Source of the DNA: Elusimicrobiota bacterium | GTDB taxonomy: Bacteria; Elusimicrobiota; Endomicrobiia; Endomicrobiales; Endomicrobiaceae | Reading direction: 5' to 3' | Assembly: GCA_017528425.1 (NCBI GenBank) | Contig: JAFXOV010000015.1 | Coordinates: 62,001 to 126,000, forward strand | Length of the DNA: 64,000 nucleotides | Part shown: positions 33,983-38,233 of the stretch, piece by piece | How positions within the stretch are numbered: position 1 is the first letter of the stretch | Layout of the letters: each line of letters begins with the position of its first letter | The notes under the pieces: model-generated | Databases searched by the model: none | Seen by the model: the letters and a program-made list of their open reading frames with translations, nothing else | Told to the model about the DNA's origin: nothing | Position numbers and translations under genes: made by a program

Positions 33983-34392
33983 TAAATTTCGGAATAACAA
34001 TATCAAAACAAAAAGAACTTGAAGACAAATTCGTTAAGTTAAACATTAAAGAATGCGATATCGTTGAAAAATTTGTTCACTCGTCGGGTAAAGGCGGTCA
34101 AAACGTGAACAAAGTTGCAACTTGTGTATATTTAAAATATCTTCCTTTAAACATAGAAATAAAATGCCAAAAAGCAAGAACTCAACTTTTAAACAGATAT
34201 TATGCAAGGAGAATGTTAGCGGAAGAAATAGAGTGCAGACTTTTGGGTGAAAAAAGCAAAAAACAAAGAGAAATCGAAAAAATAAGGCAACAAAAAAGAA
34301 AAAGAAGCAAAAGAGCCAAAGAAAAAATTTTGGAATTAAAAAGAATGAATTCCGAGAAGAAAGAAAACAGAAAGAAGGTTATAATAGAATGA
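33979..34392 (+). CDS. Stand-alone release-factor domain protein (ArfB/PrfH-like)
   Basis: A 137-residue protein with the peptidyl-tRNA hydrolysing motif HSSGKGGQNVNKVATCVYL (GGQ at about residues 38-40) and no codon-recognition domains. The C-terminal 60 residues are a very basic helix (RQQKRKRSKRAKEKILELK), similar in character to the ArfB tail that enters the empty mRNA channel of stalled ribosomes. ArfB-like rescue of nonstop ribosomes is the likely role. It overlaps its neighbours by 4 bases on each side (ATGA), so translation is coupled to the HAD gene and nadE. Confidence 0.85.
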   Translation: MINFGITISKQKELEDKFVKLNIKECDIVEKFVHSSGKGGQNVNKVATCVYLKYLPLNIEIKCQKARTQLLNRYYARRMLAEEIECRLLGEKSKKQREIEKIRQQKRKRSKRAKEKILELKRMNSEKKENRKKVIIE

Positions 34393-35987
34393 AAATAGCA
34401 TTGGCAAAAATAAACCAAACCGCCGGAAATATCGAGAAAAATCTTTTAAATATTTCAAAATATATATCCGATGCCGAAAAAGCAAAATGTGATTTAATCG
34501 TGTTTCCTGAATTTGCAATTTGCGGCGGGTACTGCGGAGATTTATTATTAAACGAAGATTTTATCGAAGAAAACATTAAAGCGGCCGACAAAATAATAAA
34601 AGAAAGTAAAATACCGGTAATTTGCGGAACGGTCACAAAAGACGGCAAAGGCGGTCTTTTAAATTCCGTTTCTTTATTTTACGGAGAAGTTTCCGGTCTT
34701 GCAGGTGCAAAAGATAATTTAAACGATTCCGCTTTTAACGATATGAAATATTTTAAGAATTACAATATCGTCAATATCGTCAAACTTGCAAACAAAAATA
34801 TTTTGTTTGTTTCCATAGACAATATAACCGCTATTAAAGAGACAATTAAAACAATTTTTAAAGAAACTACCGTTAAGCCGGACATTGTTTTTGTTATCGG
34901 TTGCAGTCCTTATTATTACGGAAAAATCGAAGAATTTAAACAATGTTTCAAAGAACTTGCCGTTGAAAATAAAGCCGATTTTTCTTATTTGAATATGCTC
35001 GGCGGTAACGACGGATATGTTTTTGACGGTTTGGCAATATATGCAGACAAAAACGGTAATTTTAAGTTAACGGACCAATCTTTCGAAGAAAGATTAATAA
35101 TAGCAGATACCGACGGAGAAAATGTTAAAACCGAACAAAACGACAGAAACAAAGAATTGTACGATGCTTTAGTTATTGGACTAAAAGATTACATGGTAAA
35201 AAACAAATTCAAAAAATGTGCTTTGGGTGTAAGCGGGGGAATAGATTCCGCTTTGGTTGCCGCAATTGCGGTTGATGCAATAGGTGCGGAAAATGTGTTG
35301 GGTGTACTTATGCCCTCGAAATATACTTCCAAAGAATCTATAGATTGTGCTTTGGAATTATGCAAAAATTTAAATATACAATCTAAAACAGTTCCCATAA
35401 ACGATGTCTATAACACATATATCAATCAACTAACTCCGTTATTTGAAGGAAAGCCAAAAGATTTAACGGAAGAAAATTTGCAGGCAAGAATAAGAAGCAA
35501 TATTTTAATGGCATTATCAAATAAGTTCGGTTATTTTATTTTGTGCACATGTAACAAGTCCGAAGATGCCGTAGGTTACAGTACTCTTTACGGTGATGCA
35601 ACCGGCGGATATTCCGTTATAGGAGACTTGTTAAAGAAAGATGTTTACGCACTTTCAAAATACAGAAATACAATTTCAAATGTTATTCCGGAATTTATAA
35701 TTACGAGACCGCCGACGGCGGAACTCAGAGACAATCAAAAAGATTCCGATTCATTACCGGAATACGATATTTTAGACGATATATTAATAAAAATATTGGA
35801 AGAGAAAAAAACTTATTCTCAAATAATCAAAAGCGGTGTAAAAAAAGAAGTTTTGGATAAAGTTTGGAAACTGTTATCCACATCGGAATATAAGAGAAGA
35901 CAATCTCCGTTAGGAACAAGAGTTTCTAAAACCGCTTTTTCAAGAGATATTACTTTACCAATGAGCAACGGATACAAATGGAAATAA
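34389..35987 (+). CDS. nadE: NAD+ synthase, two-domain type with altered glutaminase site
   Basis: Converts deamido-NAD to NAD+ with ATP. The C-terminal synthetase domain (from about residue 255) is intact: GVSGGIDSALVAAI (ATP pyrophosphatase loop), CNKSEDAVGYSTLYGD, GDLLKKDVY. The N-terminal nitrilase domain (about 1-250) normally supplies ammonia from glutamine through a Glu-Lys-Cys triad. Glu in IVFPEFAICGGYCGDLL and Lys in GAKDNLNDSAFNDMKYF are present, but the segment aligned with ICED reads VSID: Ser142 (codon 34812-34814) replaces Cys. The enzyme may therefore depend on free ammonia. It overlaps radC by 10 bases. 532 residues, near normal. Confidence 0.93.
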   Translation: MKIALAKINQTAGNIEKNLLNISKYISDAEKAKCDLIVFPEFAICGGYCGDLLLNEDFIEENIKAADKIIKESKIPVICGTVTKDGKGGLLNSVSLFYGEVSGLAGAKDNLNDSAFNDMKYFKNYNIVNIVKLANKNILFVSIDNITAIKETIKTIFKETTVKPDIVFVIGCSPYYYGKIEEFKQCFKELAVENKADFSYLNMLGGNDGYVFDGLAIYADKNGNFKLTDQSFEERLIIADTDGENVKTEQNDRNKELYDALVIGLKDYMVKNKFKKCALGVSGGIDSALVAAIAVDAIGAENVLGVLMPSKYTSKESIDCALELCKNLNIQSKTVPINDVYNTYINQLTPLFEGKPKDLTEENLQARIRSNILMALSNKFGYFILCTCNKSEDAVGYSTLYGDATGGYSVIGDLLKKDVYALSKYRNTISNVIPEFIITRPPTAELRDNQKDSDSLPEYDILDDILIKILEEKKTYSQIIKSGVKKEVLDKVWKLLSTSEYKRRQSPLGTRVSKTAFSRDITLPMSNGYKWK

Positions 35988-36673
35988 AAGAGAAAGACGT
36001 TTTAGGGCATAGAAACAGAGTAAAAAAAAGATTTTTGAATACCGGATTTGACGGTTGGCAGGATTACGAAATCTTGGAACTCGTATTGTTTTATGTTATA
36101 CCGAGAAAAGACACAAAACAAATCGCTAAAGATCTTATAAAAAAGTTCGGCAGTTTAAAAGAATTAATGAATGCGGGCCATAATGAATTGCTAAAAGTAT
36201 TAAAAGATATAGACGGAGTCGGCCCAAACACTGCCTTTTTCTTTCGTTTTTTAAAAGAGATTTCGATTAAATATTCGGAATTCAAAATAAAAGATAAACA
36301 AAAGGTTTCTTCTCCTCAGGAAGTTGTTGAATTTTTAAAAAATAAAATAGGAACTTGCAAAGAAGAACAGATGTATACTGTTTTTTTAAATGCATCAAAT
36401 AAAATTTTGGATTTTGATAAGATAAGCGAAGGAACGGTATGCAGGTCAGCAGTGTATCCTTCAAAGATAGTAAAAAGTGCAGTATTAACCGATGCAAGAA
36501 GTGTTATTGTTGCTCATAATCATCCCGGGGGTGTTTGCAAACCTTCACAAAATGATATAATAGCAACAGAAGCAATACAGAAAGCTTTAAAGACCGTGGA
36601 CGTTATGTTGTTAGATCACATAATTGTCACCGGTTCGGATTATTACAGTTTTAAAGATAACGGTCTTATATAG
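35978..36673 (+). CDS. radC: RadC/JAB-domain protein
   Basis: A 231-residue member of the RadC family. The N-terminal half has a helix-hairpin-helix (LLKVLKDIDGVGPNTAFFF at about residue 70). The C-terminal half is the JAMM/MPN metal site: SEGT, then AHNHPGGVCKPSQND with both His and the Asp. Despite the historic name, its repair role is doubtful; JAMM domains elsewhere cut isopeptide bonds. The start lies within the end of nadE. The next gene begins 9 bases after its stop, with GGAG in the gap. Confidence 0.93.
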   Translation: MEIKEKDVLGHRNRVKKRFLNTGFDGWQDYEILELVLFYVIPRKDTKQIAKDLIKKFGSLKELMNAGHNELLKVLKDIDGVGPNTAFFFRFLKEISIKYSEFKIKDKQKVSSPQEVVEFLKNKIGTCKEEQMYTVFLNASNKILDFDKISEGTVCRSAVYPSKIVKSAVLTDARSVIVAHNHPGGVCKPSQNDIIATEAIQKALKTVDVMLLDHIIVTGSDYYSFKDNGLI

Positions 36674-36682
36674 GAGAAAAAA

Positions 36683-38110
36683 ATGAGTGGCTTATTCGGT
36701 GTAGTTTCAAAAAAGAAAGACAGTTGTATAGATTCTTTAATTTACGGAACTGATTATCAGGCACACATGGGTTCGGAATACGGCGGGTTGGCCGTATTCG
36801 GCAATAACAGCTTTGCAAGATTTATTCACAGAATGAGCAACGCAAATTTCAGAGATAAATTTTTTGAAAGTATAAAAGATTATGAAGTTCACAGCGGTAT
36901 CGGTGTAATAAGCGATTTGGAAGAACAACCTATTTATATGAAATCGAAAGTAGGGGAATTTTGTATAGTTACGTCGGGCAGAATTGTTAATATGGAAGAA
37001 CTTGCAAAAGAAATGATGGATTCGGGAATATGTTTCAGCGAATTCAGCAAATCTCATGTAAATATGACGGAACTTGTAGCAAGAATCGTTTCCTTGGGAA
37101 AGACAATACCCGACGGAATAAAATTGATGTTTGGCAAAATCAAAGGTTCTTGTTCTTTGCTTATTTTGGCAAGAGAAGGTGTTTATGCCGCAAGAGATTA
37201 TTTCGGCAGGACGGCTCTTGTTTTAGGTCAGGATTCCGACTCTTTTGCGGTATGTTCGGAAACTTGCGGTTTTGCAAATTTAGGTTACAGAACAATAAGA
37301 GATTTAAATCCGGGGGAAATTCTTTTAATAAGCGATACGGAAGTTAAAGTATTGGAACCCGGCTACAAAAACAGAAAAATTTGTACTTTCTTATGGATAT
37401 ATACCGGTTTTCCGTCATCAAGCTACGAAGGATTAAATGCCGAACTTGTAAGAGAAAGAAGCGGAAAAATCCTCGCAAAGAGAGATAAGGGGATAAAAGC
37501 GGATTTGGTTGCCGGTGTTCCCGATTCCGGTCTTGCACATGCAATCGGTTACTCTATGGAATCCGGTATTCCGTTTAGAAGACCGTTAGTAAAATATACT
37601 CCAACATACGGAAGAAGTTATGCACCTCCGTCACAACATTTAAGAGATTTAACGGCAAGAATGAAACTTATAGCAATAAAAGAAGTTATAGAAGGCAACA
37701 GTCTTATTCTTTTGGAAGATTCTATAGTCAGGGGAACACAGTTAAAGAATTTTACGGTGGAAAAGTTGTGGAATTGCGGAGCAAAAGAAATACATGTAAG
37801 ACCTGCATGTCCTCCGTTAATGTTCCCTTGCACATATTGCAACTCTACAAGAACTAACAGCGAACTTATAACAAGAAGAGCTATAAGGGAAATAGAAGGG
37901 CATGATATAGAGGATGTTTCCGAATATCTTGACCCAAAAACCGAAAAATATGCTAAAATGATAGAGTGGATCAGGAAGTACTTGAATATTACGTCTTTGA
38001 AATATCAAACTTTGGAAGATATGATAGAAGCAATAGGTTTGCCTAAAGAAAATTTATGTACTTATTGCTGGAACGGCAAAGATTGTGCCTGTTGCAAAAA
38101 AGACAAATAA
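36683..38110 (+). CDS. PurF-like amidophosphoribosyltransferase paralogue lacking the glutaminase Cys
   Basis: A 475-residue protein with the two-domain plan of PurF, which makes phosphoribosylamine from PRPP and glutamine. The transferase half is sound: VAGVPDSGLAHAIGYSMESG and the PRPP loop ILLEDSIVRGTQLKN. The glutaminase half is not. The mature enzyme should start with Cys; here the start reads MSGLFGVVSK, with Ser2 encoded by AGT, and a TAG lies in frame 6 bases upstream so no longer start exists. The usual HVRYPTAG, HNGNL and SDSE motifs are also lost (GVISDLEE, TSGRIVN, VNMTE). C-terminal Cys residues could bind a cluster. Perhaps ammonia-dependent, or another role. Confidence 0.85.
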   Translation: MSGLFGVVSKKKDSCIDSLIYGTDYQAHMGSEYGGLAVFGNNSFARFIHRMSNANFRDKFFESIKDYEVHSGIGVISDLEEQPIYMKSKVGEFCIVTSGRIVNMEELAKEMMDSGICFSEFSKSHVNMTELVARIVSLGKTIPDGIKLMFGKIKGSCSLLILAREGVYAARDYFGRTALVLGQDSDSFAVCSETCGFANLGYRTIRDLNPGEILLISDTEVKVLEPGYKNRKICTFLWIYTGFPSSSYEGLNAELVRERSGKILAKRDKGIKADLVAGVPDSGLAHAIGYSMESGIPFRRPLVKYTPTYGRSYAPPSQHLRDLTARMKLIAIKEVIEGNSLILLEDSIVRGTQLKNFTVEKLWNCGAKEIHVRPACPPLMFPCTYCNSTRTNSELITRRAIREIEGHDIEDVSEYLDPKTEKYAKMIEWIRKYLNITSLKYQTLEDMIEAIGLPKENLCTYCWNGKDCACCKKDK

Positions 38111-38152
38111 ATTTGTTATTAATTACTAATTTCTAATTAATAATTGCAGAAT

Positions 38153-38225
38153 GGGGCTATAGCTCAGTTAGCAGAGCGCTTGCATCGCATACAAGAGGCC
38201 GGGGGTGCAACTCCCCCTAGCTCCA
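38153..38225 (+). tRNA. tRNA-Ala, anticodon CGC
   Basis: A full cloverleaf of 73 bases. The acceptor GGGGCTA pairs with TAGCTCC (38218-38224) with G3:U70, the alanine identity pair, and discriminator A. The D stem is GCTC/GAGC. The anticodon loop ATCGCAT (38184-38190) gives CGC. The T stem GGGGG/CCCCC closes loop TGCAACT. CCA is not encoded. Two oddities: C31 faces A39 at the base of the anticodon loop, and position 55 is G instead of the near-universal U. Located between the PurF paralogue and the ATP synthase operon. Confidence 0.88.
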
Positions 38226-38233
38226 TTTTTTTA

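Follow-up and report, generated by a model that had tools for sequence, protein, structure and literature searches.

A widespread family of PurF paralogues with a dismantled glutaminase half and a conserved PRPP site

Purine synthesis is treated as needing glutamine at its first step. The DNA analysed here (the window, a 64,000-nucleotide stretch of an Elusimicrobiota genome) contains a gene for a PurF-like protein with serine where PurF has its N-terminal cysteine nucleophile, which raises the question of what such a protein might do. We use PurF* as a label for this paralogue, encoded at 36683-38110, and for its family.

A PurF-like protein and its altered glutaminase domain

The open reading frame encodes 475 amino acids (N-terminus MSGLFGVVSK), the second codon being AGT for serine. 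The gene radC ends with an in-frame TAG (36671-36673), which is followed by GAG AAA AAA (9 bases) and then the ATG, and therefore an earlier start is impossible; the first-pass annotation had concluded the same, but gave the spacing as 6 bases, which was incorrect. The protein is PurF-like along its whole length, with B. subtilis PurF as the best PDB match, and scored 210 bits against NCBIfam TIGR01134 (purF), below the curated cut-off of 350. An AlphaFold model (mean pLDDT 86.5) was most similar in Foldseek to 1ao0_A, B. subtilis PurF (TM 0.81), and the predicted model has the two-domain PurF fold. The genome is 2.08 Mb in size (completeness 100). The records of relatives, among them Candidatus Ruminimicrobiellum at 94-95%, point to rumen Elusimicrobiota, and the gene order with radC is maintained in Elusimicrobiota relatives. 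A tRNA-Ala gene (anticodon cgc), the sole tRNA gene found in the window, lies at 38152-38226 between PurF* and ATP synthase genes. Features of the locus are collected in Table 1.

Table 1 Coordinates of the PurF* gene, its neighbours and its diagnostic residues in the window
Feature	Position	Strand	Evidence or conservation
nadE, glutamine-type NAD synthetase, two genes 5' of PurF*	34389..35987	+	CN_hydrolase and NAD_synthase
radC-like JAB-domain gene, directly 5' of PurF*	35978..36673	+	PF04002
PurF* gene, 475 aa	36683..38110	+	profile, AlphaFold, Foldseek
Dead class-II glutaminase domain	about residues 1-228	+	
Type-I phosphoribosyltransferase domain	about residues 229-466	+	
Ser2 in place of the Cys1 nucleophile	36686..36688	+	S 76, G 7 of 83 PurF*; C 43/43 canonical
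Cys15, invariant new cysteine	36725..36727	+	83/83 PurF*, 2/2 intermediates; 0/43 canonical
Met29 in place of Arg26 (HRG motif)	36767..36769	+	L 57, M 26 of 83 PurF*
Ile76-Ser77 junction, glutamine-loop deletion site	36908..36913	+	deleted in 83/83 PurF*, 2/2 intermediates
Cys234, Fe-S ligand position	37382..37384	+	83/83 PurF*
Flexible loop of the phosphoribosyltransferase domain, Lys304-Leu329 (KYTPTYGRSYAPPSQHLRDLTARMKL)	37592..37669	+	one residue longer than in PurF
PRPP loop EDSIVRGT (345-352), intact	37715..37738	+	next residue Gln353 (Thr in PurF)
Cys383, Fe-S ligand position	37829..37831	+	83/83 PurF*
Cys459 and Cys462 (CTYC), Fe-S ligand positions	38057..38068	+	83/83 PurF* each

We aligned 139 proteins, comprising 87 PurF*, 43 canonical PurF, 2 intermediates, 5 other proteins without Cys1 and 2 of a third type; L043, with an incomplete start, was excluded from alignments. 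The PurF* sequences, two of which come from one genome (G099), were thinned at 98% identity to a non-redundant set of 83 and mapped onto E. coli K-12 PurF. None of the 83 has Cys at the nucleophile position, and all lack a loop that starts at E. coli Arg73, so that Arg73, Tyr74 and Thr76 are gone throughout. The available part of PMC7953260 gives R73-E84 as the glutamine loop of PurF. In the window protein, GHVRYPTAG... of E. coli PurF has become GVI, a nine-position gap and SDLEEQP, HNGNL has become TSGRI, and SDSE has become NMTE. The serine codon and changes in these three segments had been pointed out in the first-pass annotation, and the alignment bears both out, the change at HVRYPTAG going further, to deletion of the loop. 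Asn101 is retained in 25 of the 83 sequences and the Asp127 equivalent in one. At the wall of the ammonia channel, Tyr74 is deleted in all 83, while Ile335 is replaced by Thr (66), Ala (11) or Met (1) and kept in 5. With Tyr74 deleted, Ile335 mostly replaced and the Arg73 loop gone, both the glutamine site and the channel wall have been lost. Furthermore, among the 41 loci of relatives that were fetched, 40 reach the N-terminus and all 40 start with MSG, VSG or MGG. Given that Cys1 and the loop are missing from 83/83 PurF*, their loss is due neither to chance nor to sequencing error, in line with the earlier claim that the glutaminase site has been lost.

At the PRPP site, Tyr258, Arg332, Arg342, Lys349, Asp367, Ser368 and Arg371 are retained in all 83 sequences, and Thr333 is Ser in all of them; roles of these PurF residues in PRPP contact are described in the available parts of PMC7953260 and PMC7056826. 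The alignment also agrees with the first-pass observation of an intact PRPP loop. The four cysteine positions kept in PurF* are those that we take to be the ligands of the Fe-S cluster. At the position of Cys15, canonical PurF has Ala (39 of 43), Ser (2) or Val (2). The flexible loop of PurF* has the form KYTP...RSY, with the equivalents of Tyr329 and Ile335 lost and Tyr329 changed to Gly or Thr in 83/83. In all 87 PurF*, RGT is followed by Gln, the FEY Glu is Leu or Phe, and the Arg of RPDS is Phe or Tyr; the Phe that follows the changed Glu is Thr in 80 of 87. As many as 102 positions are at least 97% conserved across the 87 sequences, many of them specific to the family. Among 23 genomes with both proteins (253 pairs), mean identity of the glutaminase domain was 58% for PurF* (dead) versus 52% for PurF (live), and that of the phosphoribosyltransferase domain was 71% versus 55%; the glutaminase/phosphoribosyltransferase divergence ratio was 1.42 for PurF* and 1.11 for PurF. 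The dead domain is relaxed relative to the phosphoribosyltransferase domain, yet it is clearly retained, and the constraint on it suggests some further function.

Phylogeny and distribution of PurF*

PurF* formed a single clade (FastTree support 0.754, or 0.993 together with the two intermediates, from G151 and G004), in which the Bacteroidota, Peptoclostridium and second G099 copies made up a subclade (0.999). The intermediates, both read as sequence, are like PurF* in the loop deletion, RGTQ and Cys15, but they retain Cys1, the HRG motif and the FEWAY segment. As they have Cys1 and already lack the loop, loop loss seems to have preceded Cys1 loss in the PurF* lineage. They also bear on a result that the first-pass annotation had named as one that would overturn its view, another cysteine aligned at the nucleophile position: none was found, and Cys15 lies within the chain and coexists with Cys1 in these two early-branching relatives. 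By score, G341, G312, G258, G304 and G326 are perhaps in the intermediate group as well. Two proteins of a third PurF-like type (L200 in G129 and L201 in G126; MSGIFGFIG...) lack Cys1 and have HRG, VRYPT, HNG and TDTE; their PRPP loop is altered to DSLLVRGST and they occupy a separate long branch. A divergent 452-aa PurF-like protein (L225), starting MSGIIGVF and changed at three of the four Fe-S cysteine positions, is the only PurF-like match in G156, where purM and purH are present and purD sits at a contig edge.

Relatives occurred in records named Elusimicrobiota, Omnitrophota, Auribacterota, Krumholzibacteriota, Brocadiia, Deltaproteobacteria and Syntrophaceae. They were also present in plasmid records of Peptoclostridium, Bacteroides, Parabacteroides and Phocaeicola, plasmid records being the sole sample of Bacteroidota and Bacillota, and were annotated there as amidophosphoribosyltransferase, as hypothetical protein or not at all. 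The guess that GGFFG-type N-termini in other anaerobes mark an uncharacterised subfamily has thus been borne out as to both parts: such N-termini are seen in Bacteroides, Parabacteroides and Phocaeicola (GGLFG in Peptoclostridium), and PurF* is a monophyletic family in several phyla. In the open-licence PMC literature, a scope outside which most subscription papers and all preprints fall, we found no description of the family. Among named proteins, Bacteroides finegoldii WP_007756110.1 and Peptoclostridium acidaminophilum WP_025436666.1 (both annotated amidophosphoribosyltransferase) and Parabacteroides distasonis WP_009018525.1 (annotated hypothetical) belong to it. They are 42-49% identical to the window protein and share its losses, but have Gly rather than Ser at position 2, and their genes adjoin pepT (plus gcvT in Bacteroidota) whereas the window gene follows nadE-radC. 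A relative 43% identical was also present in MT836108.1, a 12.9-kb record filed as phage that may instead come from the chromosome of a gut bacterium.

Compared with PurF (TIGR01134; E. coli and B. subtilis, PDB 1ecb and 1ao0), PurF* shares the two-domain fold, the PRPP site and the four Fe-S cysteine positions seen in the canonical sequences of the alignment; it differs in lacking Cys1, Arg26, the glutamine loop and the Tyr74/Ile335 channel wall, and in having a longer flexible loop and Gln after RGT. By description, Methanocorpusculum labreanum Mlab_0150 is similar to PurF*, since it accompanies a normal PurF as a second copy whose nucleophile is replaced by Ser; according to the available part of PMC3261824, it arose from Mlab_0202 by a relatively recent duplication.

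The search for a canonical PurF elsewhere in the genome, proposed in the first-pass annotation, returned L001 (MCGIFG start, 483 bits), which makes the window protein a paralogue. The two genes are on different contigs (C24 for PurF* and C45 for purF), and they are far apart in most genomes. The canonical purF of this genome adjoins genes of a split glutamate synthase (GATase_2, Glu_synthase, Pyr_redox, GXGXG), of which GATase_2, Glu_synthase and GXGXG lie directly upstream of it at L195 (G000:C45). We surveyed Elusimicrobiota and Omnitrophota (the phylum of G145) at a completeness of at least 90%, and the phylum of G126 at 95% or above. PurF* was detected in 17/119, 39/97 and 25/118 genomes, respectively, together with canonical PurF in 14/17, 30/39 and 25/25, most of these genomes being metagenome-assembled so that absence is weak evidence; in the phylum of G126, the count includes G245, split over two contigs, and G334 and G348, whose canonical matches are partial. 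For Elusimicrobiota, 13 of the 17 PurF* were read as sequence and four (G011, G014, G101 and G103) were assigned by score and open frame, while G116 and G106 (partial, 168 and 185 bits) and G004 (344 bits) were not counted. Of the 31 genomes reached through the fetched loci, 23 also had a canonical PurF over the cut-off. PurF* is mostly a companion of canonical PurF.

Links to purine synthesis and natural loss of Cys1 elsewhere

In some Omnitrophota, PurF* lies in a purine operon with the order purB-purL-TIGR00730-(purQ)-PurF*-purM-purD. This was the case in 9 of the 39 PurF*-bearing genomes of the 97-genome sample (five with purine neighbours among 31 loci, G212 read directly, and G181, G203 and G205 by coordinates), though not in the window, and the remaining Omnitrophota loci showed no purine neighbour in the stretches examined. 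The TIGR00730 gene (Rossmann fold) stands inside the purine operon at L163, L168, L170, L171 and other Omnitrophota loci, most of these operons having an hflK-like gene too. Four genomes with PurF* in a purine operon (G146, G148, G187 and G221) yielded no canonical PurF. Four others have PurF* and purF side by side: in G141, G143 and G145 the start codon of purF overlaps the end of PurF*, stop codon included (offsets -4, -17 and -20), and the two frames also overlap in G212. For Elusimicrobiota, purD was found in 15 of the 17 PurF*-bearing genomes, and PurF* in 0/23 tested genomes without PurF and purD (hypergeometric 0.019, confounded by genome relatedness), which is moderate evidence, the genomes being related, for co-occurrence with the purine pathway.

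Several simpler patterns did not hold. Retention of PurF* where purine synthesis is absent was considered for three genomes without purD and purM (G091, G211 and G218), but all three have purH; as purF, purM and purD are often together, a gap in the metagenome-assembled genome probably explains the missing genes, and two control genomes (G196 and G223) likewise lack purD and purM yet have purH. Replacement of PurF by PurF* was not supported as a general pattern: 9/39 Omnitrophota with PurF* gave no PurF match, but some controls without PurF* also lack PurF while having purD, and all 25 PurF*-bearing genomes in the phylum of G126 have both. PurF was missing from 7/37 purD-bearing Omnitrophota with PurF* versus 4/56 others (Fisher 0.11), purD having been tested in the 7 controls without a normal PurF match and assumed in the 52 with PurF. 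Neighbouring genes do not point to a single function either, since none is common to all lineages. At unrelated loci, PurF* or intermediates neighbour genes for glutamate dehydrogenase (G211, G169 and G151), carB (G211, G137, G169, G151 and G099) and a glutamine synthetase-like protein (G099), and pepT-gcvT lies beside PurF* in Bacteroides and Parabacteroides. The neighbours have a nitrogen theme and no single partner.

A separate loss of Cys1 has taken place in canonical-type PurF. One genus of the window's family includes three genomes (G046, G054 and G058, each 99% complete) whose single PurF is canonical in type and scores 427-435 bits; these proteins start with MGG, MSG and MGG (L213, L212 and L211) versus MCG in the sister G023, and stop codons lie just upstream of the starts. 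These proteins form one clade (0.982) within the genus (0.999) and retain the glutamine loop and channel residues, and purD and purM are present in all three genomes. Since the sole PurF lacks Cys1 and purD and purM are kept, a PurF without glutaminase activity seems to suffice here. The HNG motif is drifting in L211, L212 and L213 (KNGN, HNGS and QDGN). In G023, a single-contig genome whose PurF has Cys1, purD was found and purM gave no match, unlike in the sisters without Cys1. In G032, a second PurF copy (L203, G032:C1:567891-569225) has Gly in place of Cys1 and stands immediately before purD and purM, and a Cys1-bearing PurF is found elsewhere on the same contig. According to the available part of PMC3261824, replacement of Cys1 by Ala or Ser in E. 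coli PurF abolishes the use of glutamine while ammonia still serves. Like PurF*, these C1A and C1S mutants have no nucleophile, but they are laboratory mutants with the rest of the protein intact, nearer to the natural G046, G054 and G058 proteins than to PurF*, and the ammonia-dependent activity cited in PMC3261824 is that of the mutants. Together, the mutants and the natural proteins without Cys1 make ammonia-fed synthesis of 5-phosphoribosylamine (PRA) a realistic option in these habitats.

Possible functions of PurF*

The reading that we consider most likely, although somewhat short of an even chance, is that PurF* makes PRA from PRPP and free ammonia, as a glutamine-independent sister working beside PurF. 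Its phosphoribosyltransferase domain would bind PRPP and condense it with free ammonia, supplying PRA to PurD without spending glutamine, and could thereby give anaerobes in ammonia-rich places an entry to purines; the dead glutaminase domain would now serve structure or allostery. Both the reaction and the source of ammonia are inferred. AsnA beside AsnB is a comparable pairing. The PRPP contacts kept in every PurF*, the place in the purine operon in some Omnitrophota, including the four genomes without canonical PurF, the co-occurrence with purD in Elusimicrobiota, the natural and laboratory proteins without Cys1, and the ammonia-metabolism neighbours at unrelated loci argue for ammonia use. 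Against it, ammonia use alone requires no change in the phosphoribosyltransferase domain, as the G046, G054 and G058 proteins indicate, yet that of PurF* carries new residues that are invariant, and the constraint on the dead domain hints at another role. Genomes with PurF* mostly have PurF as well, so that PurF* seldom has to act as the sole PurF; PurF is not significantly more often lacking in PurF*-bearing Omnitrophota; and the purine-operon location, which the window does not show, is that of a minority of Omnitrophota PurF*.

The invariant new residues would be better accounted for if the acceptor to which PurF* transfers phosphoribosyl from PRPP were some amine besides ammonia, such as an amino acid, an amide or a small amine, a new phosphoribosyltransferase reaction that we regard as unlikely. 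Residues on the acceptor side and in the flexible loop were remodelled and have become fixed across phyla, for which simple ammonia use gives no need, and the invariant Cys15, the conserved domain where the glutaminase was and the many loci outside purine operons fit as well; at a similarly low probability, the acceptor may be chosen by the remodelled acceptor-side residues together with the former glutaminase domain, repurposed and bearing Cys15. No candidate acceptor is at hand, however, and PurF* seems restricted to purine prototrophs in Elusimicrobiota, is in the purine operon of some Omnitrophota, and in G091, G211 and G218 accompanies purH, where a gap in the assembly is likely. A marginally likelier but still doubtful proposal is that PurF* is a partner subunit of PurF, which in the available part of PMC7056826 is a homotetramer; mixed tetramers would sense PRPP and purine nucleotides and tune the glutamine-dependent enzyme, with little catalysis by PurF* itself. 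Its near-constant company with PurF, the constraint on the dead domain and the overlapping genes in G141, G143, G145 and G212, a translational coupling typical of subunits, speak for this. On the other hand, the genes are distant in most genomes, the invariant PRPP-site residues would be dispensable in a mere subunit, and several purD-bearing genomes show no PurF, although assembly gaps may be responsible. That PurF* is a decaying pseudoenzyme without function is very improbable: the whole glutaminase site is lost and its domain diverges faster than the phosphoribosyltransferase domain, more markedly so than in PurF, but the 102 conserved positions and the open frames across several phyla are hard to reconcile with decay. 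Serine can serve as the nucleophile of Ntn enzymes in other families, and Cys15 is invariant; even so, a glutamine-dependent PurF* using Ser1 or Cys15 is scarcely credible, given Gly at position 2 in 7 of 83, which excludes serine as a substitute, the deletion of Arg73 with the glutamine loop, and the near-complete loss of Asp127.

Judged from its sequences, PurF* is a widespread, conserved and little noticed family in which the glutamine half and the ammonia tunnel are gone and the PRPP site is kept. Metabolic models that count PurF* as PurF are probably wrong, at least on the nitrogen source. If another amine is the acceptor, a second PRPP-consuming enzyme would be common in anaerobes, including gut Bacteroides. 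Whether purine synthesis is run on free ammonia in cells becomes a testable question, and the three genomes whose sole PurF lacks the nucleophile suggest that such synthesis is possible.
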